From Zanthoxylum bungeanum (Eukaryota > Streptophyta > Magnoliopsida > Sapindales > Rutaceae): a stretch of DNA of 64,000 nt. The DNA lies in NCBI GenBank assembly GCA_019454045.1, contig SKCR01031853.1:62001-126000 (forward strand), read 5' to 3'. Numbering within the stretch: position 1 is the first letter of the stretch; each line of letters opens with the position of its first letter. Positions 3,033 through 46,029 of the stretch are shown piece by piece. Under the pieces are notes generated by a model. It ran no database searches and had not been told where the DNA came from. It was given only the letters and a program-made list of their open reading frames with translations. A program made the translations under genes and the position numbers.

Positions 3033-3107
3033 GTAATTTTCCAACAGGTATCTCAAGTCGAAGGACCACTATGCTCGCTTAACTCGAGAAGATTTCTATT
3101 GACGTTG
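3033..3107 (-). mobile_element. Inverted D-type Copia LTR fragment, left part
   Basis: ggtatctcaagtcgaagg and gaccactatgct are the reverse complement of the D LTR around 60380-60435. The match resumes at 11335 after element A. The last five bases, cgttg, are the target-site duplication of element A. Confidence 0.65.
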
Positions 3108-5328
3108 TGACCGGCGTAAACACACACGTATAACGCAAGCGCACGTATCGTTCAAGTATTATAAAAATATCGATCCCACAAGGACTTAATTCCTACTGTT
3201 GTTATTAATTATTGAATCTATTTATTTACGAATATCTAATTGAGGGTGAAGAGAATGATTGTTTGATTGGTTGAAAGTGGTTTTACAAAATAAATAAATA
3301 AAAAGACAAAAGAAAATACTAAGGAAAATAACAAAAGGACACAAAGATCTAGGGTTGTGAATCCTTCTAATATCTTTTTAAAAGATGAAGTGATTATTTT
3401 ATGTTTGTGTAATAAATCAGTTTACTAACCTGGAACACTAAATTATGCAAAAGCCTTTGTCGATGGTCAGACGCAAATACCCAGTTTAACCCAATTGAAC
3501 CATATGTCTATGTCAACCAAATTATCTGGATTCATTAAGTTTGAGTTCCAATTATGGCTACCCCCGCCCGACAGGTATATTCCTATCCTGTAAGGAAATC
3601 TATTAAAGGGTTATCTATCCTCAAGGAAGATCGTGGGCTATTAAGTCTAAGGTTGAAACCTAAAATCCCTATTTCTAGTTCATTTTAGATTTACCACATC
3701 AATCTTATTGGTGATCAGACAAGAAGAAGCATTAAGCTTAAGACTTAATAAGTAAACCTTTAAATTACCCAAACTATAAAATAACCCCTTATAAACCGGT
3801 GATATTAGAATTCATCACAACCCCAGATAACTAACACATAACTAGGGCTAGTAAAAACTTAAAAGTAAAAGACATAAAATAAAAATACTGAAAAGTAAAA
3901 GACATAAAGTAAAAGCTGAAAAGTAAATTACAATAAAATAAAATGCTAAGGTAAAAGGAATTACTTTTACTACTACTAATTTAGATATCTCCCATAAAAT
4001 AATATATAAACTTGTGATTTTTTTTCCAACCAGCCATATAGGCGGTAACCTGATTAAGTCAAATTAAGTCCAACCAGCCATAAAGGCGGAACCAAAATTA
4101 AATTACCAACCGACCAATCTGGCGGTATCCTTTATTAGTCAGGTTTAAACCAGATTAAAATGAATTACCAACCGACCAATCTGGCGGTATCCTTTTTAAG
4201 TCAATATTTTAAATAATGAATATATTATTTTTAAGGGAGATTATTCTAAATAGTAATAGTAAAAGAATTACCTTTCACCCTAGCTGGGGAAGTTACCTCC
4301 TCATGGTAAATAGTAAAAACTGTACAAAGTAAAAAGTAAAAATTAAATTACTATTATGACAAAACGTAATTAAAATTATTTACAAAAACTAAAAATATAA
4401 AAAAAAAACTAAAAACTAAAGAATCTAGAGAGAGAAACTCTCTCTTTAGATAGAATATAAGAGAGAGTGTGGTACATTCAATTCTGAAATCTCGAGCTCA
4501 ATTTATAGGCCTCGGTAGGCTTCCAGCGTCGCGACGCCAGGGCCTTCAGCGTCGCTACGCCAGATTTTGTCGACGTGGCACGCTCTGGTTCGCCGGTTTG
4601 AAGATTCTGGATAAGCTGATAAGGTGACACGTGGCGAGGTGGTTGGGCTTCAATTATTGTGACACGTGGCAGCTTCTGATTGGTCGCTGAGATTCTTATC
4701 CGCCACGTGCCAGATAAGGATTAGATACACAATTATTGATGCTGACATGGCGCTGATGTGGCGGTGACGTGGCGGTGACGTGGCGACATGTGGGAAAGAG
4801 ACTGTCAGCACCGCAGGATTGCGACACGTGGCACTTCCTGATTGGCTGATGATGATGTGGCGGTGACGTGGCAGTGTTGACTTGCTGATGTGGCTGATGA
4901 CATGGAGATGACCTGGAGTGACACGTGGCACACGTGGCGATGATGACTGTCGGCACCGTAGGATGCTGACACGTGGCACGGTGCATGTTAGCAGATCGGC
5001 TGTGATGGTGACACGTGTCACGGCGCATTTTAGCAAATTCAAACTTTTCTCAGATTCTGATTTGTGGACCCGGCGCACGTTAGCACTGTTCGGCGCATGT
5101 TAGGCGTCGCGACACTGAAGGTCTTGGCGTCGCGACGCTGACAATTTACTGAAATGTCTTTTTCGTCCAATTTTCACTGTTTTGGCCCAAATCACCTCCA
5201 GAATGTCCTGAAACTTTATTTATCTACAAAATAACACAAAACACATCAAAACGTTCACAAAACTCAAGAAACTATACAAAATATTAGGTTAAATGAGTGG
5301 GAAATAGTGATATAAATACCACTCATCA
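3108..5328 (-). repeat. Element A 3' LTR
   Basis: Direct copy of 9176-11334, with termini TGA...TCA. On the plus strand it reads TGACCGGCGTAAACACAC to ACCACTCATCA. It contains a degenerate 65-bp repeat built on accaaccgaccaatctggcgg (about 4030-4200). It also holds a GA-rich stretch (4428-4470), a TATAAAT box on the minus strand (4501-4507) and an ACGTG array (about 4570-5050). Confidence 0.9.
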
Positions 5329-5340
5329 CACCCCCAAACC
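5329..5340 (-). other. Polypurine tract of element A
   Basis: On the minus strand this reads GGTTTGGGGGTG directly against the 3' LTR. It is the expected plus-strand priming site. Element B has the same tract at 30310-30321. Confidence 0.7.
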
Positions 5341-6590
5341 TAACATTTTGCTAGTCCTCAAGCAAAACATAAAATAACATAAATAAATTAACTAAGCCAC
5401 ATTCGTACGGATCACGGTTGCATTTAGCGTATGCAACAAGCCTTTAAACCCCTAGGTGTCCCTGGTGGACGAGTTGTAGTCTCGTGAGGGTTTACAGCAA
5501 TGATACCCACAAACATTTTACAAAAGTAAAAAGGTAGTAAAACTAATGCACACAAAAGTAAAAAGACAAGCGAAAAGAGAATAAAGATGTTAGTGACTAA
5601 TCAGGTGAAACTTCTACTCCAAGTTACTAGTTGTTTTGTTTCATTCTAAATTACCGATTAAGTAAATTCTCCGATTATTTTTACCATTCTCCATATTTAC
5701 AGCCAACATAATATTAAACAACTCATTTTTGCCCACAACAGTCATAAGTGCAGTTGATAAGAGAGTAAATTTTTGTCCTAAAGTTCGATCAGATTTCACA
5801 CCTTTTTGGAGCAATGGAATAATTTTTCTCATTTTTCTGATTTTTTCTTTGATTTTTCTCTATTTTTTATTTATATACAATACATTCCGTCTATGTAGCG
5901 AGTGTTGGGTCGATGGCTCCCAAACCAGTTGGCTTTAGGGCACCAAGTGTTAAGACACCCCTACGGACTTAATTACTCAGACTTCAGATATATATATTTT
6001 TGCAGCATCTTTGATCCATGTAGCGAGCTTTGGGCCAGTGACTCCCAAACCAGTTGGTTTTAGGGCACTAGGTGTTAAAACACCCTTACAGACTTAATAA
6101 CTCGGATCTTAGACTTTTTTTTTTTTTTTACTCCATTGCTTTTTGAGATGTTTCCTCCAATTAAACTAGAGCACTGAATATTACAAACTTTTCAATTTTA
6201 GCTCATGTCCGTATGTTACTATATATGTTGATAATATCTGCTAACTGAACATATGAAGATTCATTTTAAACAAAAATTATCTTGTTTCGAAATAGGTTTG
6301 AGATACGTCTCAGGAGTGGAAACTCCTTACTCAGCTATCTCTTACCAATTTCACATTTTTAGTCAAATTAAAAACACAAAATATTTTTGTAATTTTTGAA
6401 AAATTTTCAATTTTTTTGTATTTTTCGAAAAATTTTGGACTAAAAATAAAAACAACATACAAACTAAAAACAAGGTACTAATCAACTAATTTCCTCCCCC
6501 AAACCTAAATGAGACATTGTCCCCAATGTCTTAAACAGTAAAAGGAGAGTTAAGAAGGTCGTACCTGGTTAGCTGAAAATCTACAGGAAA
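5341..6590 (-). repeat. Athila-type 3' untranslated block of A
   Basis: Non-coding stretch between the LOG stop and the 3' LTR. It holds the conserved Athila signature gacattgtccccaatgtc near 6511. A roughly 120-bp block is present twice (about 5886-5990 and 6008-6115), each copy with tcccaaaccagttgg and a gggtgttttaacaccc-like palindrome. Element I has a single copy of the block at 46730-46800. No real ORF is seen; the short ORFs at 5641-5938 are AT-rich shadows. Confidence 0.6.
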
Positions 6591-7244
6591 TTAAGGGTTA
6601 AGATCCAGATTAATCCGACGCCTCTTACCACGATCGTCCTCGGACAAATTTATCTTTGAAAGGATAGGGTCAACTTGAGGTTCATAGGCTATGAGTTGGT
6701 CTATTAGATCCGGAGCAGTTCTGGCAGTGAAGAGGAGTTCTTTCATAGGTTTTGACACAAACCCATTTCTCCGAGCATCATCAAGAAACACACAAAGAAA
6801 ATCATAAAATCCATCAACATTAAACAGTCCAAGCGGTTTCTGGTGTATGTTCAGGTTCGCCCAAGATAGTACTATAAAAATTTCCTCCAATGTACCCAAG
6901 CCACATGGCAAAGTGATAAAAGCATCAGCACGGTTAATCATTTCTACCAGTCGTTCAGACATACCTGGCACGATCAGTTCCTCTCCGTTTGATGATCCAA
7001 TAAGATTTGCCTCTGCCAAGGGTTTTGGGATGATTCCCAAAACATGACTGCCTCCCTCCTGTACAGCCTTTGAAACGATCCCCATAAGTCCAAGATTGCC
7101 TCCGCCATATATTAAGTGCATATTCCTTGCAGCTAAGACTCGACCCAATTCATGTGCTGCTTCTACGTATTGTGGCTTAGTACCAACACTAGTACCGCAA
7201 AACGCACAGGTGTTTTCAACTCGTCTTCTTGAAGTGGCTTCCAT
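6591..7244 (-). CDS. Retrotransposon-borne LOG-type cytokinin riboside 5'-monophosphate phosphoribohydrolase
   Basis: A 217-residue ORF covering the full length usual for plant LOG proteins, which release active cytokinin bases from their ribotides in the cytosol and nucleus. Visible are the Rossmann glycine motif YGGGNLGLMG (46-55), GMSER with the conserved Arg (98), and the PGGxGTxxE motif in the form PCGLGTLEE (113-121), where Gly114 is Cys. IHQKPLGLFNVDGFYD (133-148) is also typical. The C-terminus is basic and then reads NLDLNP. The gene is intronless and sits in sense orientation inside element A, 18 nt after a 74-codon ORF. Family membership is certain. The Cys114 substitution lies in the active-site loop and probably impairs activity. 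Expression would depend on the LTR promoter. The start codon is supported by the aligned start of the B copy. Confidence 0.88.
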   Translation of the reverse strand: MEATSRRRVENTCAFCGTSVGTKPQYVEAAHELGRVLAARNMHLIYGGGNLGLMGIVSKAVQEGGSHVLGIIPKPLAEANLIGSSNGEELIVPGMSERLVEMINRADAFITLPCGLGTLEEIFIVLSWANLNIHQKPLGLFNVDGFYDFLCVFLDDARRNGFVSKPMKELLFTARTAPDLIDQLIAYEPQVDPILSKINLSEDDRGKRRRINLDLNP

Positions 7245-7262
7245 TTTTTATGTATTTCTTTT

Positions 7263-7487
7263 TCAAATCAGGATGCCTTCAAAAGTGTAATGACGGGCTG
7301 AATTTATAGTACCTGAAAAAGGGTGAGTAATAATAGCACTAATATCTTCCAGAGGACGATTGTTAGCTAAACAACAAAATAAATCGTGAAATGTCAAAAA
7401 GTCTGGATCCTGTCTACGAAAATAAAGATAATTACAACAGAAAAGCGAATCAAAGCAATAATTAAGGCAACGGAATTGTGTACGCAA
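7263..7487 (-). CDS. Conserved 74-residue ORF preceding LOG in element A
   Basis: An unrecognised Cys- and Phe-rich small ORF. Element B has the same ORF at 32317-32541, the same length, with 67 of 74 residues identical by eye. It ends 18 nt before the LOG start codon on the same strand. It may be leader sequence carried in with the LOG transcript, or residual element sequence. No domain, signal peptide or catalytic motif is recognised, and similarity may only reflect recent common ancestry of the elements. Confidence 0.35.
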   Translation of the reverse strand: MRTQFRCLNYCFDSLFCCNYLYFRRQDPDFLTFHDLFCCLANNRPLEDISAIITHPFSGTINSARHYTFEGILI

Positions 7488-7760
7488 TACGCCACTCGCT
7501 TAGTATAAATTCATTAGGATGCGTTTCAAGATTTCATTCCTTACTCAGCCATCGCTAATGAATTGTTTCTCATCTTTGATTGCCAAAAACAATTCCTTCT
7601 GTCTTAAAATGCTTCGTTTGTGACTTTCCCTACAAAAATAACACACAAAATTAAAAATTTCACACAAAATATGAAAACAAATTACAACAAATTGCATGGG
7701 TTTCCTCCCTGCTAGCGCTAAATTTTTCGTCTTCAGCCAAACGTGAATGAAATTCATCTA
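7488..7760 (-). other. Spacer between gag-like ORF and LOG region
   Basis: AT-rich non-coding spacer, collinear with 32542-32824 of element B. One short ORF (7545-7757) is not preserved at the same length in B and is not considered a gene. Confidence 0.5.
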
Positions 7761-9043
7761 TTAAGGAGGTTTCAATTTCGTTTTGGATGTCCGATTAAAG
7801 ACAATCCCGTGAGCGTTGCTTTTGAAGGGTCTCTTCCAACGGTAAAGTGACAAAAAGAATTTTGTTCTATTCAGTGCTCGTGCCACCTTTTTGCTCCTTG
7901 TTGTTCCAGTGATTCTTGCAAAGAAAGAAATAAAATCAGGAGGTCTCATATGGTGCTTGACTTGGAATGGAAGTTCCATTCTGTCAAGCTTCTGGGTGAT
8001 ATCTTTGATTTGTACTCCCCAAAACAGCGATGTTTCTCCTGAATGCTCTGGATCTTTATTAAGGTCAGACATTTGCTCCTCCATTTGCTTTGTTTCTTGA
8101 TCCACCTTTTCTTCACAGATGTATTTTAAAATTTTTGTATTCAGCTCTTCATCTGTTATCGATGAGATACATGCTTCAAAATTGTCAACCTGAGGATGCA
8201 AAGATGTTTCTGACATTAGGTTTTCATCCTCTGATACGACTGGAATGGATGGTTCAGATAGATCTTCTTCAAACATCATGGTAAAGGATGCTCCAAGATC
8301 TTCATTTTGAGGATTGAAAGTTTGATCCCCCGTTGTTGGTGCAGTTGGTACAAATAGATCAGCTTCATCCTCGTCAAATCTGAATAATAAAAGTCAAATT
8401 GAGACTTTGTCGGTTCGGGCTCCTGAACTGATACCTCTGGTTGTTGATACTGCTCAGCTTCCTCCTCTGTTGAAGTGTCATTGTGAAATGATTGGTACTC
8501 GAAGGCTTCATCAGTGTCATCTGAAACTGGTTCTTGAGGTATGTAGTTCTGGTTTTCTGTGAATTGTCTCATTTGATCTGTTATCCTTTGAATGGATTTT
8601 GATTGTCTCTGAATACTTTCGAGTTGATTCTGGAATGTTTCAAGCATTGTATCCATCTTTTCTTCTCGTTTCTTGAACACATCTTTGAGCATGTCAATCA
8701 TCTGATCTTTTTCTGATTGTTCTGATTGTTGATGAAGATCATTGTAGGTGGGTGGTGGATAAGATGGAAAATGTGATGGTTTTTCGTACCATGAAGGATT
8801 TTGATAGCTCTGCCACCCTGGATGGTAGTTGTATTCACAATAATCTCTAGGGTGGTTACCATTACATATTTCACATCTCCCCATTGCGTTCTGTTGAGCA
8901 AATGTGGTATTGCTTGGTTCTGGCATCCATTGATAATTGTTGGGCTGGACAACAGGCCTCAGAAAACCGGACAGTTGCTCCCAGATGTGGGGTGTATCTT
9001 CTTGTAAGGCTCGTAATCTTTCAATCTCCCAGTAGTGTTCCAT
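7761..9043 (-). pseudogene. Gag-like protein of element A, frameshifted
   Basis: Two overlapping ORFs (9043-8276, then 8279-7761) correspond to one protein in element B and are split by a frameshift near 8378. The N-terminal part has a retroviral-type zinc knuckle, CEICNGNHPRDYC, with spacing CX2CX3HX4C, one residue shorter than the usual CX2CX4HX4C. Then come a Pro/Tyr-rich stretch, a Gln/Glu-rich probable coiled coil, an acidic segment and a conserved C-terminal block (SLFWGVQIKDI, then KLDRMELPFQVKHH). The zinc knuckle and position after the primer site point to the tail of an Athila gag. The capsid-like part of gag is missing. Nucleic-acid binding is inferred from the knuckle only. Confidence 0.7.
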
Positions 9044-9150
9044 TTTTCATCCACCTGAAAGAGAAAGAAATAAAAATTACAGATAAAAATAAAGAAAATT
9101 AGATACAAGTAAATTAGATAGCTTCAAAATTAATAACTCAAGAAAAATAA

Positions 9151-9173
9151 GTCCCCGGCAACGGCGCCAAAAA
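9151..9173 (-). other. Primer-binding site of element A
   Basis: On the minus strand TTTTTGGCGCCGTTGCCGGG follows the 5' LTR after two bases. TGGCGCCGTTGCCGGGGA is the known Athila-type primer site, complementary to tRNA-Asp. Confidence 0.85.
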
Positions 9174-9175
9174 CT

Positions 9176-11334
9176 TGACCGGCGTAAACACACATGTATA
9201 ACGCAAGCGCACATATCGTTCAAGTAATATAAAAATATCGATCCCACGAAGACTTAATTCCTACTGTTGTTATTAATTATTGAATCTATTTATTTACAAA
9301 TATCTAATTGAGGGTGAAGAGAATGATTGTTTGATTGGTTGAAAGTGTTTTACAAAATAAATAATTAAAAAGACAAAAGAAAATACTAAGGAAAATAACA
9401 AAATGACACAAAGATCTAGGGTTGTGAATCCTTCTAATATCTTTTAAAATATGAAGTGATTATTTTATGTTTGTGTAATAAATCAGTTTACTAACCTGGA
9501 ACACTAAATTATGCAAAAGCCTATATCGATGGTCAGACGCAAATACCCAGTTTAACCCAATTGAACCATATGTCTATGTCAACCAAATTATCTGGATTCA
9601 TTAAGTTTGAGTTCCAATTATGGCTACCCCCTCCCGACAGGTATATTCCTATCCTGTAAGGAAATCTATTAAAGGGTTATCTATCCTCAAGGAAGATCGT
9701 GGGCTATTAAGTCTAAGGTTGAAACCTAAAATCCCTATGTCTAGTTCATTTTAGATTTACCACATCAATCTTATTGGTGATCAGACAAGAAGAAGCATTA
9801 AGCTTAAGACTTAATAAGTAAACCTTTAAATTACCCAAACTATAAAATAACCCCTTATAAACCGGTGATATTAGAATTCATCACAACCCCAGATAACTAA
9901 CACATAACTAGGGCTAGTAAAAACTTAAAAGTGAAAGACATAAAATAAAAATACTGAAAAGTAAAAGACATAAAGTAAAAGCTGAAAAGTAAATTACAAT
10001 AAAATAAAATGCTAAGGTAAAAGGAATTACTTTTACTACTACTAATTTAGATATCTCCCATAAAATAATATATAAACTTGTGATTATTTTTCCAACCAGC
10101 CATAAAGGCGGAACCAAAATTAAATTACCAACCGACCGATCTGGCGGTATCCTTTATTAGTCAGGTTTAAACCAGATTAAAATGAATTACCAACCGACCG
10201 ATCTGGCGGTATCCTTTTTAAGTCAATATTTTAAATAGTGAATATATTATTTTTAAGGGAGATTAATCTAAATAGTAACAGTAAAAGAATTACCTTTCAC
10301 CCTAGCTGGGGAAGTTACCTCCTCATGGTAAATAGTAAAAACTGTAAAAAGTAAAAAGTAAAAATTAAATTACTATTATGACAAAACGTAATTAAAATTA
10401 TTTACAAAAACTAAAAAAATAAAAAAAACTAAAAACTAAAGAATCTATAGAGAGAAACTCTCTCTTTAGATAGAATATAAGAGAGAGAGTGGTACATTCA
10501 ATTCTGAAATCTCGAGCTCAATTTATAGGCCTCGGTAGGCTTCCAGCGTCGCGACGCCAGGGCCTTCAGCGTCGCTACGCCAGATTTTGTCGACGTGGCA
10601 CGCTCTGGTTCGCCGGTTTGATGATTCTGGATAAGCAGATAAGGTGACACGTGGTGAGGTGGTTGGGCTTCAATTATTGTGACACGTGGCGGCTTCTGAT
10701 TGGTCGCTGAGATTCTTATCCACCACGTGTCAGATAAGGATTAGATACTCAATTATTGATGCTGATGTGGCGGTGACATGGCGACATGTGGGAAAGAGAC
10801 TGTCGGCACTGCAGGATTGCGACACCTGGCACTTCCTGATTGGCTGATGATGATGTGGCGGTGACGTGGCGGTGTTGACTTGTTGACTTGCTGACGTGGC
10901 TGATGACATGGAGATGACCTGGAGTGACACGTGGCACACGTGGCGATGATGACTGTCGGCACCGTAGGATGCTGACACGTGTCACAACGCATGTTAGCAG
11001 ATCGGCTGTGATGGTGACACGTGTCACGGCGCATTTTAGCAAAGTCAAACTTTTCTCAGATTCTGATTTGTTGACCCGGCGCACGTTAGCATTGTTCGAC
11101 GCATGTTAGGCGTCGCGACGCTGAAGGTCTTGGCGTCGCGACGCTGACAATTTACTGAAATGTCTTTTTCGTCCAATTTTCACTGTTTTGGCCCAAATCA
11201 CCTCCAGAATGTCCTGAAACTTTATTTATCTACAAAATAACACAAAACACATCAAAACGTTCACAAAACTCGAGAAACTATACAAAATATTAGGTTAAAT
11301 GAGTGGGAAATAGTGATATAAATACCACTCATCA
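9176..11334 (-). repeat. Element A 5' LTR
   Basis: 2.16 kb copy of 3108-5328, ending at the target-site duplication cgttg (11335-11339). It holds the putative promoter region described separately. Short ORFs over the ACGTG array on both strands (10730-11109) are compositional artefacts. Confidence 0.9.
10521..11040 (-). promoter_or_regulatory. Element A LTR promoter: ACGTG array plus TATA box
   Basis: Reading on the minus strand, about ten ACGTG cores (many as GACACGTGGC or GACACGTGTC) lie between roughly 11030 and 10590. They are followed by TATAAAT at 10527-10521. CACGTG is the plant G-box and ACGTGGC the ABA-response element, both bound by bZIP or bHLH factors. The order enhancer-like array, TATA box, then GA-rich leader fits a U3 promoter driving the element and its LOG gene. 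Function is inferred. Confidence 0.6.
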
Positions 11335-15990: not shown

Positions 15991-16149
15991 GATGCAGAGA
16001 GGATGTATTAAGAAGAGCCTTGCTTATAGTGACCCTTATAGAGTTGCAAGAAAGGCAACAGATCCCAAAAAGGTGAGTAAAATCTCTTTTGACTTAGGTT
16101 GACATTTGATTATGCTTGTTTATTATGGCTCACACAATGGTTTTGATAT

Positions 16150-27160: not shown

Positions 27161-28144
27161 TGATGAGTGGAAAATATATCATTATTTACCACCTCTTTTT
27201 ACTTAATATTCTGTATAGTTTCTCGAGTTTTATGAACGTTTAATGTGTTTTAGTTTATCTTGCAAATAAAATTAAATCGGGACTTAATGAAATCAATCAG
27301 GACTAAATGTGGAATAAATAAGGGCAAAAACTGGACTTGACATTTTGATTTTGGAGATTGGAAACTTGAAATGGTGTTCTAATGAAGTACAATTTCGGAA
27401 ATTCTAATTTTGCGCAATTGTTGTATTTTGGCCATAACTTTTTACTCCGATATCGGATTGAGGTGATTCAAGTTCCAGATTAAAGAATACTCATATATCT
27501 ACAACTTTGAAGTTTATAATAATTTTGAATTCTGAAGTTTCCATGATCGAAATTGATAAAACATGTAGAAGTGGGTTATGTGTAATTATTTAAGTCATTT
27601 TCAAAATAAAAATGGTCAAACTTCCACCAAACATGCTTGCATGTTTGGTGGAGGATTTTGTGTCATGTTTGGTGTCATGTTTGATGGAGAAATTGGTGGA
27701 AGCCTTTAGATTTGCCTATAAATACCAAGCTAAACTTTGTAAATTTTTCATGCTTTCTTTGGAGGAATTTCTCCATGAAAACCTAAAGGAAAGTGTCTTG
27801 TATATTTATTTAAGTTTTCTTGTATTTTCTTTTTATTTAATTAATAAAATTTTGTGTGTTTTCATTTACAGCATGAGCAGGTAATCTCATTCTGTTGGGG
27901 TGACAAGGTAATACTTTTAATATAATAAAATAGATTAATCTCCCTTATTTTAATTAAAATTTGGATTAATTAGTTACCGTCTATATAGCCGGTTTAGGTG
28001 ACAACCTTATTTACCGGCTATATGGTCAGTTTTACATTCAAGACGTAGATTCCGCCTATATGGTCAGTTTAAGTAATAACCTTGTTATCGCTGATATGGT
28101 CGGTTAGACTTAATTAAGACAAATAGAATTTCCACCTTTATGTT
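27161..28144 (+). mobile_element. Athila-like solo LTR C, left part
   Basis: Starts TGATGAGTGG, the mirror of the A/B LTR terminus, and aligns with the LTR of element I (for example ttttggagattggaaac against 41493). It holds the repeated tatatggtcagttt motif (about 27980-28110). Element B interrupts it at 28144, and it resumes at 36283. The last five bases, atgtt, are the B target-site duplication. Confidence 0.8.
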
Positions 28145-30309
28145 TGACCGGCGTAAACACACACGTATAACGCAAGCGCACGTATCGTTCAAGTAGTATA
28201 AAAATATCGATCCCACGAGGACTTAATTCCTACTGTTGTTATTAATTGTTGAATCTATTTATTTACAAATATCTAATTATAGGGAGAAGAGAATGATTGT
28301 TTGATTGGTTGAAAGTGGTTTTACAAAATAAATAAATAAATAAAAAGACAAAAGAAAATACTAAGGAAAATAACAAAAGATACAAAGATCTAGGGTTGTG
28401 ATTTCTTTTAATATCATTTTAAAGATGAAGTGGTTATCTTAAAGTTGGTAATATATTGATTTATTAACCTGGAACACTAAATTATGTGTAAGCCTCTGTC
28501 GATGGTCAGACACAAATACCCAGTTTAACCCAATTGAACCATATGTCTATGTCAACCAAATTATCTGGATTCATTAAGTTTAAGTTCCAATTATGGCTAC
28601 CCCGCCCCGCCCGACAGGTATATTCCTATCCTGTAAGGAAATCTATTAAAGGGTTATCTATCCTCAAGGAAGATCGTGGGCTATTAAGTCTAAGGCTGAA
28701 ACCTAAAATCCCTATGTCTAGTTCATTTTAGATTTACCATATCAATCTTATTGGTGATCAGACAACAAGAAGCATTAAGCTTAAGACTTAATAAATAAAC
28801 CTTTAAATTACCCAACTATAAAATAATCCCTTATAAACCGGTGATATTAAAAGTCATCACAACCTCTAATTAACTAACACATAATAGGACTAGTAAATTC
28901 ATAAAAGTAAAAGACATAATTTAAAAGCTGAAAAATAAATTACAATAAAAAATAAAATGCTAAGGTAAAAGGAATTACTTTTACTACTACTAATTTAGAT
29001 ATCTCCCATAAAATAATATATAAACTTGTGATAAATTTACCAACCGACCAGTCTGGCGGTATCCTGATTAAGTCAAATTAAGTCCAACCAGCCATTAAGG
29101 CGGAACCAAAAATAAATTTACCAACCGACCAGTCTGGCGGTATCCTTGATTAGTCAGGTTTAAACCAGATTAAAATTAAATTACCAACCGACCAATATAG
29201 CGGTATCCCTTATTAAGTCAAATATTTAAATAGTTAATATATTATTTTTAAGGGAGATTAATCTAAATAGCAATAGTAGAAGAATTACCTTTCACCCTAG
29301 CTGAGGAAATTATTTCAACATGGTGAATAGTAAAAACTGTAAAAAGTAAAAAGTAAAAATTAAATACTATTATTACAAAACGTAATTAAAATTATTTACA
29401 AAATAAAAAAAAAAAACTAAAAAAAATAAAAATAAAATTCTAGAGAGAGAAACTCTCTCTAGAGAGAGAAATCAAGAGAGAGAGAGGTGTCCTGAAAACT
29501 GAAATTCGCGCTCTATTTATAGGAAAAAATTTTCACTGTTCGCACGTCGCGACACCAAGGAGCTCAGCGTCGCGACGCTGGATTTGTCGACGTGGCACGA
29601 TGAGAAGGCGACACGTAGCAGGCGGCTGACTGTTCACGCGACACGTGTCAAGGCGGCTAATCTCAATTATTGTGATGACGTCATTGATGACGTCATGCTG
29701 ACGCGGCGACGACGTGGCGTGACGTGGCGTGGCGGCTGACTGTTCACCTGTCGGCACAATAGGATTGTGACACGTGGCGACACGTGTCAAGTTGTGATTG
29801 GTTGAGGCTGACGTGGCAAGTTGACTCGGTTGACCTGCTGACGTGGACGATGATGTGGCATGACACGTGGCAAGGTTGACTTGTTGACCGATGATGTGGC
29901 TGATGACGAGGCGACACGTGTCAAGTCTGAGTGTCGGCAGCATATGATGATGACACGTGGCACGGCGCATGTTAGCATAGCGGCTGTGTGATGGTGACAC
30001 GTGGCACGGCGCATTTTAGTAAAGTCAAACTTCTTCAAATGGTTGACCGTTGACCAGGCGCATGTTAGCAGATTCGGCTCACGCTGAGCGTCGCGGCGCG
30101 CAGTGTTCCAGCGTCGCGACGCGCAAAAGACTAAAATATCTCTGTTGACGCATTTTTGTCCGGTTTTGCCCCAAATTGCCTCCAGTGCTGTCCAAACTTT
30201 ATTTATCTGCAAAATAACATTAAAACACATCAAAACATTCACAAAACTCAAGAAACTATACAAAATTAAGTTTAATGAGTGGGAATAGTGATACAAATAC
30301 CACTCATCA
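28145..30309 (-). repeat. Element B 3' LTR
   Basis: 2165 bp, nearly identical to 34118-36277. The TATAAAT box is on the minus strand at 29515-29521. Two TGACGTCA palindromes sit at 29676-29683 and 29688-29695 within the ACGTG array. ORFs over the array (29533-30296) are compositional. Confidence 0.92.
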
Positions 30310-30321
30310 CACCCCCAAACC

Positions 30322-31645
30322 TAACATTTTGCTAGTCTCGAGCAAAATACAAAATAAAATAACTTAACAAAATTTAACTAAGTCATTTTCGTAGGGATCA
30401 CGGTTGCATTTAGCATATGCAACAAGCCTTTAAACCCCTAGGTGTCCCCTAGTGGCGAGAGTTGTAGTCTCGTGAGGGTTTACAGCAATGATACCCACAA
30501 ACATTTTACAAAAGTAAAAAGTTAGTAAAACTAATGCACACAAAAGCAAAAAGACAAGCGAAAAGAGAATAAAGAAAGTTAGTGACTAATCAGGTGAAAA
30601 TTCTACTCCAAGTTACTAGTTGTTTTGTTTCTTTCTAAATTACCGAATAAGTAAATTCTCCGATTATTTTTACCATTCTTCATATACACAATCAACAAAA
30701 TATTAATCAACTCATTTTTGCCCACAACAGTCATAAGTGCAGTTGATAAGAGAGTAATATTTTTGTCCTAAAGTTCTATCAGATTTCACACCTTTTTGTA
30801 GTAATGGAATAATTTTTCTGATTTTTCTGATTTTTTCTTTGATTTTTTTTATTTTTTATTTATATACAATACCTTCCGTCTTTATAGCGAGCTTTGGGTC
30901 GGTGGCTCCCAAACCAGTTGGCTTTAGGGCACCAGGTGTTAAGACACCCCTACGAACTTAATTACTCAGACTTCAGATATATATATATTTTTTAAGCATC
31001 TTTGATCCATGTAACGAGCTTTGGGCCAATGACTCCCAAACCAGTTGGTTTTAGGGCACTAGGTATTAAACACCCTTACAGACTTAATAACTCGGATCTC
31101 AGACGTTTTTTTTTTTTTTTTTTTTCTCCATCACTATTTAGAGATGCTTCCTCCAATTAAACTATAGCACGGAATATTACAAACTTTTCAATTTTAACTC
31201 ATGTCCGTATGTTTCCATGTAAGTTCATAATACCTGTCAACTGAACATATGAAGATCCATTTTAGTCAGTGTTAAGGAGAATTCACAAATTAAATAATTC
31301 AAAATGAAATAAACAAAAATTAACTTATTTCGAAATAGGTTTGAGATACGTCTCAGGAGTGGAAATTCCTTACTCGGCTATCTTTTACCAATTTCACCTT
31401 TTTAGTCAAAATAAAAACACAAAAAATGCAAAATATTTTTGTAATTTTTGAAAATTTTTCAAAATTTTTTTTTTTTATTTTACGAAAAATTTTGGACTAA
31501 AAATAAAAACAACATACAAACTAAAAACAAGGTACTAATCAACTAAATCCCTCCCCCAAACCTAAATGAGACATTGTCTCCAATGTCTTAAACAGTAAAA
31601 GGAGAGTTAGAAGGTTGTACCTGGTTAGCTGAAATCTACAGGAAA
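30322..31645 (-). repeat. Athila-type 3' untranslated block of B
   Basis: Collinear with 5341-6590 of element A. It holds the gacattgtctccaatgtc signature near 31570 and two copies of the block around tcccaaaccagttgg (about 30880-30985 and 31007-31105). No ORF is supported. Confidence 0.6.
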
Positions 31646-32298
31646 TTAAAGGTTAAGATCCAGATTAATTCGACGCCTCTTACCACGATCGTCCTCGGAC
31701 CAATTTATCTTCGAAATGATAGGGTCAACTTGTGGTTCATAGGCTATGAGTTGGTCTATTAGATCCGGAGCAAGTCTGGCAGTGAAGAGGAGTTCTTTCA
31801 TAGGTTTTGACACGAACCCATTTCTTCGAGCATCATCAAGAAACACACAAAGAAAATCATAAAATCCATCAACGTTAAGCAGTCTAAGCGGTTTCTGGTG
31901 TATGTTCAGGTTCGCCCAAGATAGTACAATAAAAATTTCCTCCAATGTACCCAAGCCACCTGGCAAAGCAATAAAAGCATCAGCGCGGTTAATCATTTCT
32001 ACCAGTCATTCAGACATACCTGGTACAATTAGTTCCTCTCTGTTAGTTGGTTCAAAGAATTTGCCTCTGCCAAGGGTTTTGGGATGATTCCCAAAACATG
32101 ACTGCCTCCTTCCTGTACGGCCTTTGAAACGATCCCCATTAATCCAAGATTTCCTCCGCCATATATTAAGTGCATATTCCTTGCGGCTAAGACTCGACCC
32201 AATTCCCGTGCTGCTTCTATGTATTGTGGTTTAGTACCAACAGTACTACCGCAAAACACACAAATGTTTTCAACTCGTCTTCTTGAAGTGGCTTCCAT
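31646..32298 (-). pseudogene. LOG-type cytokinin-activating gene in element B, inactivated
   Basis: Aligned with the A copy from the same start (MEATSRRRVENICVFCGS...). The N-terminal part (32298-32029) has the YGGGNLGLMG motif. A one-base deletion near 32040-32060 shifts the frame, and a CGA-to-TGA change at the GMSER arginine adds a stop. The C-terminal part (31996-31646) retains an intact PGGLGTLEE active-site motif and ends INLDLNL. No intron is present. The lesions differ from those of copy A, whose frame is open but whose motif has Cys. The common ancestor was therefore probably a complete LOG. Confidence 0.9.
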
Positions 32299-32316
32299 TT
32301 TTTATGTATTTCTTTT

Positions 32317-32541
32317 TCAAATCAGGATGCCTTCAAAAGTGCAATGACGGGCTGAATTTATAGTACCTGAAAAAGGGTGAGTAATAATAGCAGAAGTATC
32401 TTCCAGAGGACGTTTGTTAGCTAAACAACAAAAGAAATCGTGAAAGGTCAAAAAGTCTGGATCCTGTCTACGAAAATAAATATAATTACAACAGAAAAGC
32501 AAATCAAAGCAATAATTAAGGCAACAGAATTGTGTACGCAA
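32317..32541 (-). CDS. Conserved 74-residue ORF preceding LOG pseudogene in B
   Basis: Counterpart of 7263-7487, the same length with 7 substitutions by eye. It has no recognised domain. It ends 18 nt before the LOG start. Whether it is translated is unknown. Confidence 0.35.
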   Translation of the reverse strand: MRTQFCCLNYCFDLLFCCNYIYFRRQDPDFLTFHDFFCCLANKRPLEDTSAIITHPFSGTINSARHCTFEGILI

Positions 32542-32824
32542 TACGCCACTTGCTTAGTATAAATTCATTAGAATGAGTCTCAAGATTTCATTATTTATTC
32601 AGCCATTGCTAATGAATTGTTTCTTATATTTGCTTGCCAAACACAATTCCTTCTGTCTTAAAATGCTTCGTTTGTGCCTTTCCCTACAAAAATAACACAC
32701 AAAATTAAAAAGTTCACAAAATATGAAAAATAAATTACAACAATTTGCATGGGTTGCCTCCCTGCTAGCGCTGAATTTTTCGTCTTCAGCCAGACGTGAC
32801 TGAATTCCATATGTTAAGGAGGTT

Positions 32825-33981
32825 TCAATGTGTTTTGGATGTCCGATTAAAGACAATCCCGTGAGCGTTGCTTTTAAAGGGTCTCTTCCAACGGTAAAGT
32901 GGCAAAAAATATTTTGTTTCATTCAGTGATCGTGCCACCTTTTTACTCCTTTTTTCTCCAGTGGTTCCTGAAAAGAAAGAAAGAAAATCAGGAGGTCTCG
33001 TATGGTGCTTGACTTGGAATGGAAGTTCCATTCTGTCAAGCTTCTGGGCGATATCTTTGATTTGTACTCCCCAAAACAGCGATGTTTTTCCTGAATGCTC
33101 TGGATCTTTATTAAGTTCTGACAGTTGCTCCTCCATTTGCTCTGTTTCTTGCTCCATCTGAGGATGAAAAGATGAGTCAGACATTAGGTCTTCATCCTCT
33201 GATTCGGGTAAAATGATTGGCTCAAGTAGATCTTCTTCAAACATTTGTGCAATGGAATCTCCAAGATCTTCGTTTTGAGGATACAGAATTCCATCCTCAA
33301 TTTTTGATGCAGTTGGTACAAATATTTCAGCTTCATCCTCGTCAGAATCTGAATAATAGAAATCAAATCGAGACTTTGCCGGTTCGGGCTCCTGAACTGA
33401 TACATCTGGTTGTTGATACTGCTCAGCCTCCTCCTCTGTTGAAGTGTCATTGTGAAATGATTGGTACTTGAAGGCTTCATCAGTGTCATCTGGAATTGGT
33501 TCTTGAGGTATGTAGTTCTGGTTTTCTGTTAATTGTCTGATCTGATCTGTCATTCTCTGTATGGATTCTGTTTGACTCTGAAATTGTGCATCAAATTGAG
33601 CTGCTTGTTCTTTGAACATGTGCATCAACTGATCTTCCTCGGATGGTTCTGGTTCTGATAAGGATCGAAGGAAGATGGTGGATAAGATGAAAAATGTGGT
33701 TCTGTGAAATGTGATGACTCGTCATACCATGAAGGATCTTGATAGTTCTGCCACCCTGGATGGTAGTTATATTCGCAATAATCGCTTTGGTGGTCACCAT
33801 TACATATGTCACATCTCCACATTGAGTTCTGTTGAGCAAATGTAGTATTGCTTGGTTCTGGCATCCAGTGATAATCATTGGGCTCGACAGCAGGCCTCAG
33901 AAAACCGGACTGTTGCTCCCAGATGTGAGGTGTATCTTCTTGTAAAGCACGTAATCTTTCAATCTCCCAGTAATGTTCCAT
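32825..33981 (-). pseudogene. Gag-like protein of element B, one frameshift
   Basis: ORF 33981-33625 starts MEHYWEIERLRALQEDTPH and carries the zinc knuckle CDICNGDHQSDYC at residues 57-69 (CX2CX3HX4C). ORF 33628-32825 continues in another frame with a Gln/Met-rich probable coiled coil, an acidic stretch (DSDEDEAE), a Glu-rich stretch and the conserved C-terminal block ending NAHGIVFNRTS. The frame break is near 33630-33650. In copy A that region reads through but breaks elsewhere, so the ancestral protein was about 370 residues. It is read here as an Athila gag C-terminal remnant. No capsid domain is visible. Confidence 0.7.
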
Positions 33982-34092
33982 TTTTAAGTAACCTGAAATA
34001 AAAAGAAAGAAATAAAAATTACAGATAAAAATAAAGAAAATTAGATACAGGTAAATTGGATAGCTTCAAAATTAATATCTCAAGAAATATAA

Positions 34093-34115
34093 GTCCCCGG
34101 CAACGGCGCCAAAAA
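34093..34115 (-). other. Primer-binding site of element B
   Basis: Same sequence as in A (plus strand gtccccggcaacggcgcc), directly inside the 5' LTR. It is of tRNA-Asp type. Confidence 0.85.
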
Positions 34116-34117
34116 CT

Positions 34118-36277
34118 TGACCGGCGTAAACACACACGTATAACGCAAGCGCACGTATCGTTCAAGTAGTATAAAAATATCGATCCCACGAGGACTTAAT
34201 TCCTACTGTTGTTATTAATTGTTGAATCTATTTATTTACAAATATCTAATTATAGGGAAAAGAGAATGATTGTTGATTGGTTGAAAGTGGTTTTACAAAA
34301 TAAATAAATAATAAAAGACAAAAGAAAAACTAAGGAAAATAACAAAAGATACAAGATCTAGGGTTGTGATTTCTTTTAATATCATTTTAAAGATGAAGTG
34401 GTTATCTTAAAGTTGGTAATATTTTGATTTATTAACCTGGAACACTAAATTGTGTGTAAGCCTCTGTCGATGGTCAGACACAAATACCCAGTTTAACCCA
34501 ATTGAACCATATGTCTATGTCAACCAAATTATCTGGATTCATTAAGTTTAAGTTCCAATTATGGCTACCCCCGCCCGACAGGTATATTCCTATCCTGTAA
34601 GGAAATCTATTAAAGGGTTATCTATCCTCAAGGAAGATCGTGGGCTATTAAGTCTAAGGCTGAAACCTAAAATCCCTATGTCTAGTTCATTTTAGATTTA
34701 CCATATCAATCTTATTGGTGATCAGACAACAAGAAGCATTAAGCTTAAGACTTAATAAATAAACCTTTAAATTACCCAACTATAAAATAATCCCTTATAA
34801 ACCGGTAATATTAAAAGTCATCACAACCTCTAATTAACTAACACATAATTAGGACTAGTAAATTCATAAAAGTAAAAGACATAAAGTAAAAAGCTGAAAA
34901 ATAAATTACAATAAAATAAAATGCTAAGGTAAAAGGAATTACTTTTACTACTACTAATTTAGATATCTCCCATAAAATAATATATAAACTTGTGATAAAT
35001 TTACCAACCGACCAGTCTGGCGGTATCCTGATTAAGTCAAATTAAGTCCAACCAGCCATTAAGGCGGAACCAAAAATAAATTTACCAACCGACCAGTCTG
35101 GCGGTATCCTTGATTAGTCAGGTTTAAACCAGATTAAAATTAAATTACCAACCGACCAATATAGCGGTATCCCTTATTAAGTCAATATTTTAAATAGTTA
35201 ATATATTATTTTTAAGGGAGATTAATCTAAATAGCAATAGTAGAAGAATTACCTTTCACCCTAGCTGAGGAAATTATTTCAACATGGTGAATAGTAAAAA
35301 CTGTAAAAAGTAAAAAGTAAAAATTAAATTACTATTATTACAAAACGTAATTAAAATTATTTACAAAAATAAAAAAAAAAACTAAAAAAATAAAAATAAA
35401 AATTCTAGAGAGAGAAACTCTCTCTAGAGAGAGAAATCAAGAGAGAGAGAGGTGTCCTGAAAACTGAAATTTCGCGCTCTATTTATAGGAAAAATTTTCA
35501 CTGTTCGCACGTCGCGACACCAAGGAGCTCAGCGTCGCGACGCTGGATTTGTCGACGTGGCACGATGAGAAGGCGACACGTAGCAAGGCGGCTGACTGTT
35601 CACGCGACACGTGTCAAGGCGGCTAATTCTCAATTATTGTGATGACGTCATTGATGACGTCATGCTGACGCGGCGACGACGTGGCGTGACGTGGCGTGGC
35701 GGCTGACTGTTCACCTGTCGGCACAATAGGATTGTGACACGTGGCGACACGTGTCAAGTTGTGATTGGTTGAGGCTGACGTGGCAAGTTGACTCGGTTGA
35801 CCTGCTGACGTGGACGATGATGTGGCATGACACGTGGCAAGGTTGACTTGTTGACCGATGATGTGGCTGATGACGAGGCGACACGTGTCAAGTCTGAGTG
35901 TCGGCAGCATATGATGATGACACGTGGCACGGCGCATGTTAGCATAGCGGCTGTGATGGTGACACGTGGCACGGCGCATTTTAGTAAAGTCAAACTTCTT
36001 CAAATGGTTGACCGTTGACCAGGCGCATGTTAGCAGATTCGGCTCACGCTGAGCGTCGCGGCGCGCAGTGTTCCAGCGTCGCGACGCGCAAAAGACTAAA
36101 ATATCTCTGTTGACGCATTTTTGTCCGGTTTTGCCCCAAATTGCCTCCAGTGCTGTCCAAACTTTATTTATCTGCAAAATAACATTAAAACACATCAAAA
36201 CATTCACAAAACTCAAGAAACTATACAAAATATTAAGTTTAATGAGTGGGAAATAGTGATACAAATACCACTCATCA
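34118..36277 (-). repeat. Element B 5' LTR
   Basis: 2160 bp with termini TGA...TCA. It contains accaaccgaccagtctggcgg repeats (about 34999-35170), GA-rich tracts (35405-35450) and the promoter-like region listed separately. Confidence 0.92.
35481..35980 (-). promoter_or_regulatory. Element B LTR promoter: ACGTG/TGACGTCA array plus TATA box
   Basis: On the minus strand about twelve ACGTG cores (about 35975-35550) and two TGACGTCA palindromes (35643-35650, 35655-35662) precede CTATAAATAGAGC, whose TATAAAT is at 35487-35481. This is a near-consensus plant TATA box. ACGTG and TGACGTCA are bZIP-binding cores (ABF, TGA and HY5 classes). Copy A keeps the array but lacks the TGACGTCA pair. Confidence 0.65.
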
Positions 36278-36282
36278 ATGTT

Positions 36283-37189
36283 CTGGTTAAATTTAATTAA
36301 TTAATCGATAAACATTGACAATAAGAGAGATTTCTAATTTTGAAATATTAAAAGTGGATCTTTTAACCCCAACATTTTCTTTCATTATTGTAATTTTACT
36401 TTTTTTATTTTCAAGATATTTTTTATGATGTTGTGTTTAATTAAGTTTTTAGTAATCCTAGGTATGTGTCATAGCTAAATACATTATCTAGGGGTGTGAT
36501 GAATTCCAATATCACCGTTTATAAAGTTGGTTATTTTATGTCTTGGGTAATATAAAGGTTTATTTATTGAGTCTTAAGCTTAATGCTTCTTATTAACTGG
36601 ACATTAATAAGATTGATCTGGTAAACTTAAAATAAACTTGACGAAGGTTTTTTAGGTTTCAGCCTTAGACTCAATAGCTCACTATCTCACCTCGGGGCAT
36701 GGTGACCCTTAGGTAGATTTTCTTACAGGATAGACATATACCTATCGGGCGGGAGTAGCCACAATTGGAACTTATTTAGAATGAATTCATGTAACTTGGT
36801 TAACATAGACATATGATTAATTGGGTTATTTGGGTGTTTGCATCTGACCATCGACATAGGCTTTTGTATATTTTCGTGTTCCATGTTAATAAACAGATAT
36901 ATTGCATAAACATGAGATAACCACTTCATCTTTAAAAGATATTGGAAGGATTCACAACCATAAATAGTTTTATAATATTGAATTTTCCTTTAATTTACTT
37001 TCGCACTGTTTTATTTACTTGTTTTAGGAAAAATCACCATCAAATCAACAAACCAATCTATTAGGTACTTGTAAACATTTAACTTCATAAATTGATAGCT
37101 AAGGTATTAAGTCATTGTGGGATCGATACTTTTTATACTACTTGAGCGATACATGCATTTGCGTTATACGTGTGTGATCACGTCGATCA
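36283..37189 (+). mobile_element. Athila-like solo LTR C, right part
   Basis: Continuation of 27161-28144. It ends gtgatcacgtcgatca and has the same U5-like end as A/B (gggatcgatac, actacttgagcgatac, gcgttatacgtgtgtg). The flanks attgg (27156-27160) and attga (37190-37194) match at four of five bases, consistent with an old solo LTR. Confidence 0.75.
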
Positions 37190-42679: not shown

Positions 42680-44210
42680 TCTCGATCAATTAGTGGTAGA
42701 TTAAATAGAGAGTTTAAATTACCTTCATCATCAATCAAAAAGGCCGAGAACTGAAATGAAAACCCACATGGCCAAGTTGAAAATCCAGTTGATCAGGTAG
42801 AACATGAGTCTCAGCATGGCGATCTTAATCATTTTAGGACACTCAGGGAATTCATGAATCCTATTAAGACATGATCATCATCTTGCATTGCTTTCCCCCA
42901 AGATGCATCACGTTTCAATATTAAAACAGGTGTCATCAAAATTTTATCCACATTTCACAGCCTAGAATCAAAAAATCATTATCAGCACTTAATGGAATTT
43001 AAAGAGGTATGTAATACTTGCACATATCAAAATTGCAACATGAATATAATTTGACTCAAGTTTTTTCCCTTTTCTTTAAAGGATAAAGCTAAAATTTAAC
43101 TGCAGAACCTTAGATCAGGATCCATCAGAACATGAGATGATTTACAAGAGTAATTTCTGAAAAAATTCTTTCCCCCCTCAAAGGACAAACTCCATTAAGA
43201 GGAGAATTATAACTTTCATACAAGAGTCGGGAAAACACTTTACCAATATTGGGAGAGAATTAAAGAGATGTTGATTGTTTGTACACATCACGAGTTTGAA
43301 ATATGGAGGCGGGTTTCCTACTTCTATGAGAGTTTAACACTCTAAAGTAGTCAAGTTGTGGAAATGATGTGTAATAGTGAGTTTAGGGACAAAAGTCCCG
43401 AAGATGCACTAGATTACCTAGAACACATGGTAGAGAATGCACAATACTAGGACACAGTCAGCACTTATGAGTAGTCTGTAAAACCACAAACATCTGGTAT
43501 AGGCATGTTTAACCTTAGGGAAAACCAAGACTTTTATGCTAAATATACATCTCCAATTAAAAAAGTTGAGGCGTTAGAAATGAGGAAGAGTGATCATGTC
43601 AAGTCAATTCAAGAAGTCATATGTCATATCTGTAATTCAAATAAACATGTCACACAAGTTTTTCCAACCTTGCAAGCCCTGCAAGAATGTCTCCATGACC
43701 AAGTCAGTTCTATAAACATCTTCAAGAGACCAAATCCAAACTAATACTCTCAAACTTACAATTCTGGTTAGAGACACCATCCAAACTTCAATTGGAGGAA
43801 TGATAACCAAACATAACCATCGCAACAACCTCCCCAGGTACACTAGAATTCTAAAAATTATCATAACTATGCACCATATATCCCACCACCTAGGAAAACC
43901 CTTAAGGATACATTGTATGTATTCATTGAGAAACATGAAGCCATCAATAACCAAACTGTGCAAATATTGATTGATCTGAAATATACCTTCTCCAAATTCA
44001 CATATGCATTGACCATTAATGAGAAATGAAAGTTTCGTGCACAACCACAGCCAAACTCCAAGAGTCATCAAAACCCTCACGAGGGTAGTTCTAGTAGTCA
44101 ACACATAAACCAAGTCAAATATGTTATTACTCTTCACAGTGGTAAGGTCATCCACAGACCTATTCTTGAACCTCATGAAGCTGAAAATAAATCAGATTCA
44201 GAGGGTAAGG
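42680..44210 (+). pseudogene. Athila gag remnant
   Basis: Frame-broken peptides match Athila gag. They include RTLREFMNPIRT (about 42837), HSLESKNHYQHLMEFKEVCN (about 42955), IQESGENFTQYWERFKEM (about 43215) and EDALDYLEHMVENAQY (about 43395), followed by a longer open piece at 43505-43744. The large minus-strand ORF (43637-44176) over this region is antisense and not a gene. Confidence 0.75.
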
Positions 44211-44454
44211 AAGGGGTTAATGAACCATTATCTATCATTTATGATAAAAAATTCTCACATGCACCTTGATTTCCTCAAGCATTAAAAACAAAGAAATTGA
44301 ACTATTCCCCATAGATTTATGAGATATTCAAACAGGTGAAGGTCAATATTCTTTTGTTAGATGCCATTAAACATATACCATTTATGCCAAATTTCTAAAA
44401 GACGTTTGCACCGTTAAAAGAAGACATCAAGAAAGAAAGAAAGTTTTTCTAGCC

Positions 44455-45624
44455 GAACAGGTAAGTTTCATTCTCTCAACCAATAATGCATTAAAATACA
44501 AAGACCCTGGTTGTCCAACTATGTCATGTATTATACGAAATCATAAAATTGAACATGCATTGCTTGATCTTGGAGCTAGTGTCAATTTGCTTCCATTTTC
44601 GGTTTACCAACAACTTAATATTGGCGAGTTAAAACAAACTTCAACTACTTTCTTACTTGCTTATAGATCAGTCAAGGTACCGAAAGGAATTGTGGAAGAT
44701 GTGTTATTACAAGTCGATAATTTCATATATCATGTGAATTTTATTGTCTTGGAAACATAAACTATAGTAGACAGTTTCAAGCCAATTATTGTAATACTTG
44801 GTCGTCTATTTTTAGCAACAGCTAATGCCTTAATTCATTACATGAATGGAATCATGAATTTGTCATTTGGAAATATGACGTTGAAGCTTAATGTTTTCAA
44901 CGTGTGTAAAAAACCATACGATGAGGACAATGAAAACGAGAGCATGAAACTAATTGAACCAATTGTGGAGGAATATATCCAGAGGAGTTTATCTGATCTT
45001 ATGGAAATTTATACATCTAATTTTCTTGAATCAAGTATGCAATTAGATTCGAATATTCTTAATGATTTTGTACTTGATTCTACACAATTACTGGAAGATT
45101 GTGGAGAGAAGCAAAATTTTAAGGAACTTGGAATACTTGAAGATGAGAAAAATGAGGAAGCACCCAAATTGGAATTAAAGACTTTGCCAGAAAGATTAAA
45201 GTATATTTTTCTTGGATATGAACAAACTTACCATATGGTAATTTCTTTCTCTCTCACAAGTGATAAAAAAGGTAAGTTATTTATTTTGAAAGAACATAAA
45301 CAAGGAATTGGATGGACTTTAAAAGATATTAAAGATATTAATCTTTTAAAATGCACATGCAAAATACATTTAAAAGATCCTGTTAGGACACATCAACCAC
45401 CTAAAAAAAGGTTAAACTCTTACATGAAAAGTGTGGTTAAAACAAGAGTCCTTAAATTTCTTGATTCATTAATCTCTTACCTACATAGTTTGGAGAAAAT
45501 CATCTATGCTAAGAAAATAAAAGCTAAACAATTAGGTGTTTGTTATGAATGCGCACGTTGGACGCGTAACACTTGTTGCCATTCTTTAGGAATGATGTCT
45601 AATAATCCCGAAGAAAAAAATTAA
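44455..45624 (+). pseudogene. Athila protease and start of reverse transcriptase, remnant
   Basis: ORF 44521-44760 contains the retropepsin motif LLDLGASVNLLPFSVY. After an in-frame stop at 44758, translation resumes (PIIVILGRLFLATANALIHY). ORF 44842-45624 covers the protease-RT linker (TLPERLKYIFLGYEQTYHMV) and the start of RT (EHKQGIGWTLKDIKDINLLK ... KRLNSYMKSVVKTRVLKFLD). The RT catalytic core, RNase H and integrase are deleted; the sequence ends in unrelated codons before the stop at 45624. No activity is possible. Confidence 0.85.
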
Positions 45625-46029
45625 CCCATTAGAGATTACTTGAGTAAAGATTCATTACATAATATATCATTAACTCTTAAGGAGCATCCTAATGGATTTG
45701 ATAAACTGATTTACAATTTACATACATAATTTCAAAAAGAAATACAACAATACTGTCTCGGGAATCTAACTTTAAGAGACCATGTTTGTCAATTTATAAG
45801 AAAATTGGATGGGAAGCATATATGCGACCCATAGAGGGCGTTCAAGCGTTACTGAACATAAAACCAGTGGAAGATGTGAGCCACAATCACATCTATCAAT
45901 ACATATCATTTACTGTTTTGATTTCATTTTATTATTTTATTATGTAACCTTTCTTTTAGTAACAGTGTTGTGGATTCAATTGTCAATTCCGCACTAACTA
46001 GGTGATGTCTTCTAAACCTCTATTTCTTT
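45625..46029 (+). other. Pol-derived debris of element I
   Basis: Short pieces such as LTLRDHVCQFIRKLDGKH (about 45765) hint at former pol coding, but nothing can be assigned with confidence. Confidence 0.35.

Follow-up and report, generated by a model that had tools for sequence, protein, structure and literature searches.

LTR retrotransposons that carry a LONELY GUY (LOG) sequence are a kind of element that has already been described. In the passages of PMC9289625 that deal with them, a YgdH/LONELY GUY domain is reported from Citrus sinensis and C. clementina, in the consensus sequences of their Gypsy elements, Populus trichocarpa Gypsy is added under a laxer filter, and the finding is presented as agreeing with Steinbauerova et al. 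2011. Where it turns to Phalaenopsis, the same source describes Gypsy elements with an ORF for an AlkB-type RNA demethylase, the protein of which is active in vitro (PMC9289625). A literature search for LOG in LTR elements returned no report beyond PMC9289625 and Steinbauerova et al. 2011. A preliminary description of the locus reported here had known of no described case, a view that the YgdH/LOG domains of those Gypsy elements overturn. What seems to be new is a lineage of such proteins with an altered pocket and an added tail, in literature searches that were not aimed at the pocket switch or the tail by name.

The window, by which we mean the whole stretch of 64,000 nt that was analysed, contains two complete elements of this kind, A and B, both on the minus strand, for which both LTR ends and the TSD could be placed. 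Each has paired LTRs with TG..CA ends, a PBS by the 5' LTR and a PPT by the 3' LTR. Element A occupies 3108..11334, coordinates that the preliminary description had right together with the perfect TSD, which is CGTTG at 3103-3107 and at 11335-11339. Its 5' LTR (9176..11334) and 3' LTR (3108..5328) differ by a K2P of 0.0227. The PBS, TGGCGCCGTTGCCGGGGAC, lies at 9151..9169, 6 nt inside from the 5' LTR, and it is followed by a gag-like region (7761..9043) made of two ORFs (8276-9043 and 7761-8279), in which a CX2CX3HX4C knuckle can be read by eye. The LOG-family ORF at 6591..7244 has 217 codons from ATG to TAA. The 3' spacer (5329..6590) contains, by pattern search, a second polypurine-like site at 6494 and the PPT at 5329, adjoining the 3' LTR.

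Element B (28145..36277) has the TSD ATGTT at 28140-28144 and 36278-36282, a 5' LTR at 34118..36277 and a 3' LTR at 28145..30309. The K2P between its LTRs is 0.0075, and because this is lower than the 0.0227 of A, B is the younger insertion. Its PBS (34093-34111) is at the same site as that of A, pattern search places its PPT at 30310 by the 3' LTR, and the internal order is the same in the two elements: PBS, gag-like region, LOG, a spacer that contains an additional polypurine-like site, PPT. The gag-like region of B (32825..33981, with an ORF at 32825-33625) was found by tblastn with the ORF of A, at 45% across 262 residues, and its LOG copy (31646..32298), located by tblastn and alignment, is broken. 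LOG thus has the sense of the element and the same position in A and B, downstream of the gag-like region and upstream of the 3' LTR, and with LTR ends and TSDs mapped it lies between two LTRs in both, as had been proposed. A tblastn search of the 64,000-nt window gave no further LOG copy besides these two.

The gag-like region and LOG are the sole ORFs of at least 120 codons between the LTRs of A and B, and for this reason we call both elements pol-less. In a Pfam scan at curated cut-offs the gag-like ORFs have no match to any gag family, and a homologue search with the gag-like ORF gave 15 matches, all of them nameless. TR-GAG and LARD are non-autonomous LTR elements of plants, with gag alone or with no gag at all; A and B likewise have LTRs, PBS and PPT and are without pol, and they differ by their enzyme-derived ORF. 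We regard A and B as probable non-autonomous Ty3/Gypsy (Athila-like) elements: pol is missing, part of a gag-like region remains beside the LTRs, PBS and PPT, and an autonomous relative presumably mobilises them in trans. That they are Athila-like is plausible, a label that is unproven because reverse transcriptase is absent and there is nothing to place. Steinbauerova et al. 2011 reportedly found two Athila-like elements similar to LOGL4. The PBS of A and B is one that we take to be of tRNA-Asp type; ARAGORN finds no tRNA in the window. The scanned gag-like and LOG ORFs have no match to PF03078, the Athila ORF-1 family, which is a feature of a minority of Athila only (16% of Athila elements in the part of PMC6317226 that treats it).

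Element B is inserted within an LTR of an older plus-strand relative, element C, which it splits (27161..37189, with approximate ends). By blastn, the LTR of A is 75% like element C at 36327-37189 and 83% like it at 27161-27270. A degraded gag-pol and 3' region at 42900..46814 on the plus strand is recognised from its reading frames, from aspartyl protease matches at 44371-44760 that are weak (E 0.02 and 0.04, below the curated Pfam cut-offs), and from blastn, by which 46273-46814 is akin to the LOG-to-3' LTR spacer of A in three pieces at 73-84%. We infer that this region and the LTR at 27161-37189 belong to a single element; its identity as a gag-pol element comes from those protease matches and from motifs at 42.9-45.9 kb that we take to be of Athila type.

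The window has other repeats and one apparent gene. The motif ACACGTGGC, which we take to be G-box/ABRE-like, occurs 17 times in the window where 0.17 occurrences are expected, and all 17 fall within LTRs of the two elements, in clusters at 4627-4977, 10682-10944, 29770-30005 and 35737-35970; judging from this motif, ABA or stress may act on the LTR promoters of A and B. Two 300-nt direct repeats at 14862-15161 and 18436-18735 (99% alike, spacing 3574), with inverted kin at 25885-26408, are probably another LTR pair, and between them, at 16120-18104, are two adjoining arrays of tandem repeats, with units of about 44 and 83 nt. The direct repeats at 48388-50390 and 56804-58805 (spacing 8416, 94-98% alike in the parts listed) are probably another LTR element, with a third copy at 984-2392 that is probably a further LTR. 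An intact F-box ORF of 396 codons at 20694-21884 on the minus strand, with a beta-propeller/kelch-type C-terminal part, is apparently a host gene.

The ORF at 6591-7244 is a member of the LOG family by profile and by fold. Its match to the Pfam profile PF03641, at 1.1e-33, spans the full profile (131/131), so that the claim of a full-length 217-codon LOG ORF in sense orientation between the gag-like region and the 3' LTR of A stands, and it matches solved LOG structures, among them AtLOG3 (2a33) at 5e-56, with which it has 47% identity. Both LOG copies in the window are nevertheless decayed. In A the frame is open, and the PGGxGTxxE motif reads PCGLGTLEE, with PGG changed to PCG and further conserved positions altered. 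B retains PGG, yet it is frameshifted by a 1-nt deletion in codon 82, and a TGA at codon 98 turns the catalytic Arg codon into a stop. The preliminary description had given B the same cargo at the same place as A; the place is confirmed, and the copy is not an intact one. The C-termini read LDLNP in A and LDLNL in B. Across the element-type clade described below the PGGxGTxxE motif is kept, the first Gly of PGG in 119/127 rows and the second in 126/127.

Relatives of this ORF were collected in two protein searches. For the search with the LOG of the window, 120 of 1237 matches were listed, of which 20 come from named plants (Xanthoceras, Populus, Reevesia and Paulownia) and 100 are ena, jgi or lgn records. 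For the second search, with a Xanthoceras protein as query, 120 of 7999 matches were listed, and these include named host LOG proteins from many families. Pooling the matches listed in both gives 185 distinct proteins. We call element-type any protein not labelled as host, the host labels being taken from source names, with three adjustments: two Acer rows were relabelled from host after inspection of their tails, which are basic and without LxLxL (P0143, 334 aa, is excluded by length, and P0150 keeps Lys100 and Glu125), and the Bidens row P0170 was added to the host labels. Tail and residue counts use the 157 proteins of 200-265 aa (126 element-type, 31 host), with 28 excluded by length; pocket counts add the LOG of element A, AtLOG3 and AtLOG8, for 127 element-type and 33 host rows. 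Two annotated Xanthoceras proteins, P0008 (359 aa) and P0015 (336 aa), apparently have two tandem LOG units each. Four scans of viral contigs gave no LOG relatives, and a scan of genome contigs gave 22 LOG loci, all bacterial by title, which we use as controls for the pocket residues.

We built trees of 76 rows hand-picked for spread, with 52 element-type rows (including the LOG of element A), 23 host rows and one outgroup. In the maximum-likelihood tree from all columns the element-type rows form a single clade apart from host, with support 84/95. When the trait columns are removed, support for the element-type clade is 93/97 and for the host side 88/67, and each of 200 bootstrap trees (100%) has a branch with the element-type rows together on one side. 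An earlier 100-row tree also has its 97 element-type rows together on one side (SH-aLRT 89). The root of the tree falls on a long bacterial branch. The preliminary description had proposed that a host LOG was captured and then multiplied with the element, and that the ORF be placed among plant LOG proteins. The uninterrupted ORF and two insertions with different TSDs agree with an LTR element that carries LOG and has multiplied with it, and the position of the ORF, in a clade separate from the 23 host LOGs, disagrees with a recent capture from the host. Within genera, the element-type proteins come in bursts of near-identical sequences. Among the clusters listed, sizes reach 39 in Xanthoceras (where records carry four locus-tag prefixes and member counts may mix assemblies) and 29 in Reevesia, are 1-2 in Paulownia (just 5 members across 4 listed clusters) and are 1-6 for host proteins. 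Xanthoceras, Populus, Reevesia and Paulownia represent four plant orders. These genus-wise bursts look like mobile-element cargo, and from them we infer that the other rows are linked to elements as well.

Most element-type proteins differ from host LOGs in residues of the pocket. For LOG of C. glutamicum, the relevant passages of PMC4979012 propose Arg99 and Glu122 as the catalytic pair and Met96, His97, Lys100, Glu125 and Trp129 as a putative prenyl site; Lys100 is placed at the adenine too. Replacing catalytic and AMP-binding residues by alanine, except Ser19, almost removed activity, a result that the text gives for the mutants collectively. The LOG of A has both catalytic residues, and at the five positions of the prenyl site it has Met, Ser, Leu, Ile and Trp in place of Met, His, Lys, Glu and Trp. 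The element-type rows as a group keep the catalytic Arg in 118/127 and the catalytic Glu in 123/127. Lys100 and Glu125 are jointly lost in 114 of the 127; the other 13 keep both, and 0 keep one. His97 is lost in 87/127, whereas all 33 host rows keep Lys100, Glu125 and His97. Among the 13 that keep the pair are rows from Xanthoceras, P0034-type rows and P0041, all of which branch near the base of the clade, and on the tree built without those columns the loss of Lys100 and the loss of Glu125 are one change each. In the bacterial loci, read by eye, Lys is present in 22/22, Glu in 18/22 (with three Asp and one Thr) and His in 4/22; Lys is therefore a strong marker, since these loci keep it throughout and vary at Glu and His. 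Since bacterial LOGs vary in this way, and since the LOG of M. marinum has a divergent prenyl site in the account given of it in PMC4979012, an altered pocket does not necessarily abolish LOG activity. Compared with plant LOG7, AtLOG3 and AtLOG8, the element-type lineage has lost Lys100 and Glu125, and often His97, and it has gained a basic and LxLxL tail. Plain cytokinin activation by the element-type LOG is doubtful on these residues, and the cargo cannot simply be called hormone-activating, as had been claimed, with the adenine/prenyl pocket residues of the clade replaced and both copies in the window damaged.

The tail is absent from the host proteins sampled. A basic cluster after Trp200 is present in 120/126 element-type rows and 0/31 host rows, and LxLxL within the last 22 residues in 99/126 and 0/31; among the 27/126 element-type rows without the strict motif, some are truncated proteins. 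A looser tail pattern requires 4 changes on the tree, and structure prediction gives the tail low confidence, like a flexible end. The EAR motif has two consensus forms, LxLxL and DLNx(x)P, in the passage of PMC9956375 that defines them, and the sequences fit that definition, a five-residue motif being weak evidence by itself. The tail may also be another kind of short motif.

The one pair of copies in the window allows selection on LOG to be estimated. Between A and B the K2P is 0.071 in LOG, 0.078 in the gag-LOG spacer, 0.072 in the 5' leader and 0.067 in the 3' spacer (0.030 in the 71 nt of it adjoining LOG), and it is higher in gag (0.135) and in the LTRs (0.167-0.174) than in LOG. That LOG DNA is as diverged as most non-coding internal DNA (0.067-0.078) counts against function. 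The codons give another picture: we observe 15 nonsynonymous codons against a neutral expectation of 24.6 (P 0.00075), in a simulation that leaves out the frameshift stretch and counts the stop as nonsynonymous. Outside the frameshift stretch dN is 0.037-0.038 and dS 0.13-0.14; over all aligned codons dN is 0.047-0.049 and dS 0.13-0.15. The Ka/Ks comparison that the preliminary description had suggested among copies thus points to constraint between two copies that are both damaged. We read this, for one pair, as constraint that would have acted while the lineage multiplied, followed by decay of the copies. Because B, with LTRs at 0.0075, carries a dead LOG, recent movement did not depend on LOG in cis.

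We think it probable, somewhat beyond an even chance, that A and B are non-autonomous Gypsy elements bearing an anciently acquired and refitted LOG-derived ORF, with plain cytokinin activation unlikely as its ancestral role. An assembly artefact or chimaera has a negligible chance: nothing was seen in its favour, and we reject it on account of two insertions with two different TSDs, diverged LTRs and the same internal order. A recent uptake of cDNA from a LOG gene that the host has today, with the element now spreading a functional enzyme for cytokinin activation, would fit the uninterrupted, open ORF of A and its LOG fold; we hold it to be very improbable given that the ORF is placed apart from the 23 host LOGs sampled, at 47% identity to AtLOG3, that its pocket is replaced and that both copies are damaged. 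The relatives might instead be a host gene family of intronless retrogenes or duplicates, copies of which were captured by LTR elements repeatedly. Some of them carry gene annotations (LOGL10 in Populus), and for most, which are protein records, the element context is not seen; cluster sizes and genus-wise bursts speak the other way, as do the Citrus and Populus Gypsy consensus sequences that hold the domain in the passages of PMC9289625 on them, and we judge this distinctly unlikely.

It is also rather unlikely, in our view, that the LOG ORF is of no use to the element and merely tolerated, its constraint a relic of a past as a host gene. Damage to both copies despite the youth of B is what this would predict, and LOG DNA does diverge like the spacers. 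It has to contend with the A-B constraint (P 0.00075, from a single pair) and with a catalytic pair kept across a diverse clade in which two pocket residues changed once. Under the reading that we favour, the uptake of the ORF, without introns, is probably ancient, and transposition has passed it on since. In the protein lineage the LOG fold and the catalytic Arg/Glu persist, the Lys/Glu pair of the base/prenyl pocket has been swapped, and the basic and LxLxL tail has been gained. Its ancestral role would most likely be that of a LOG-like protein in the nucleus, either a nucleotide phosphoribohydrolase, perhaps with an altered substrate, or one that binds nucleotides, and it would recruit a TOPLESS-type corepressor or otherwise change the host cell.

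Set beside the described systems, A and B resemble the Citrus and Populus elements in being plant Gypsy LTR elements with LOG-type extra cargo; compared by description only, they differ in having no pol, and the passages on those elements in PMC9289625 mention neither the pocket switch nor the tail. They share with the Phalaenopsis AlkB elements of that source an LTR element that keeps a host-type enzyme through several replication rounds. The enzyme there is another one and its activity was shown (PMC9289625), whereas A and B are known from sequence alone.

The pattern at the level of the lineage is the interesting part. On the question why plant LTR elements retain host-derived enzymes, the lineage offers two testable handles: a switch of two pocket residues, for which a single change on the tree is enough, and a short tail absent from the sampled host enzymes. 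Annotators should note that transposon cargo may lie behind some of the models called LOGL10 or hypothetical LOG in poplar, Reevesia, Xanthoceras and Paulownia. Should the product of intact copies elsewhere be nuclear, bind a corepressor or have an altered substrate, the retrotransposon would possess a protein that acts on its host, and LOG would not be a gene dragged along. More tentatively, and with less expectation that it will prove correct, an old retrotransposon lineage in several plant orders could carry a refitted LOG protein, a nuclear one that recruits TOPLESS or intervenes in the nucleotide or hormone signalling of the host; if so, it would be the retrotransposon counterpart of the EAR-motif effectors of pathogens.
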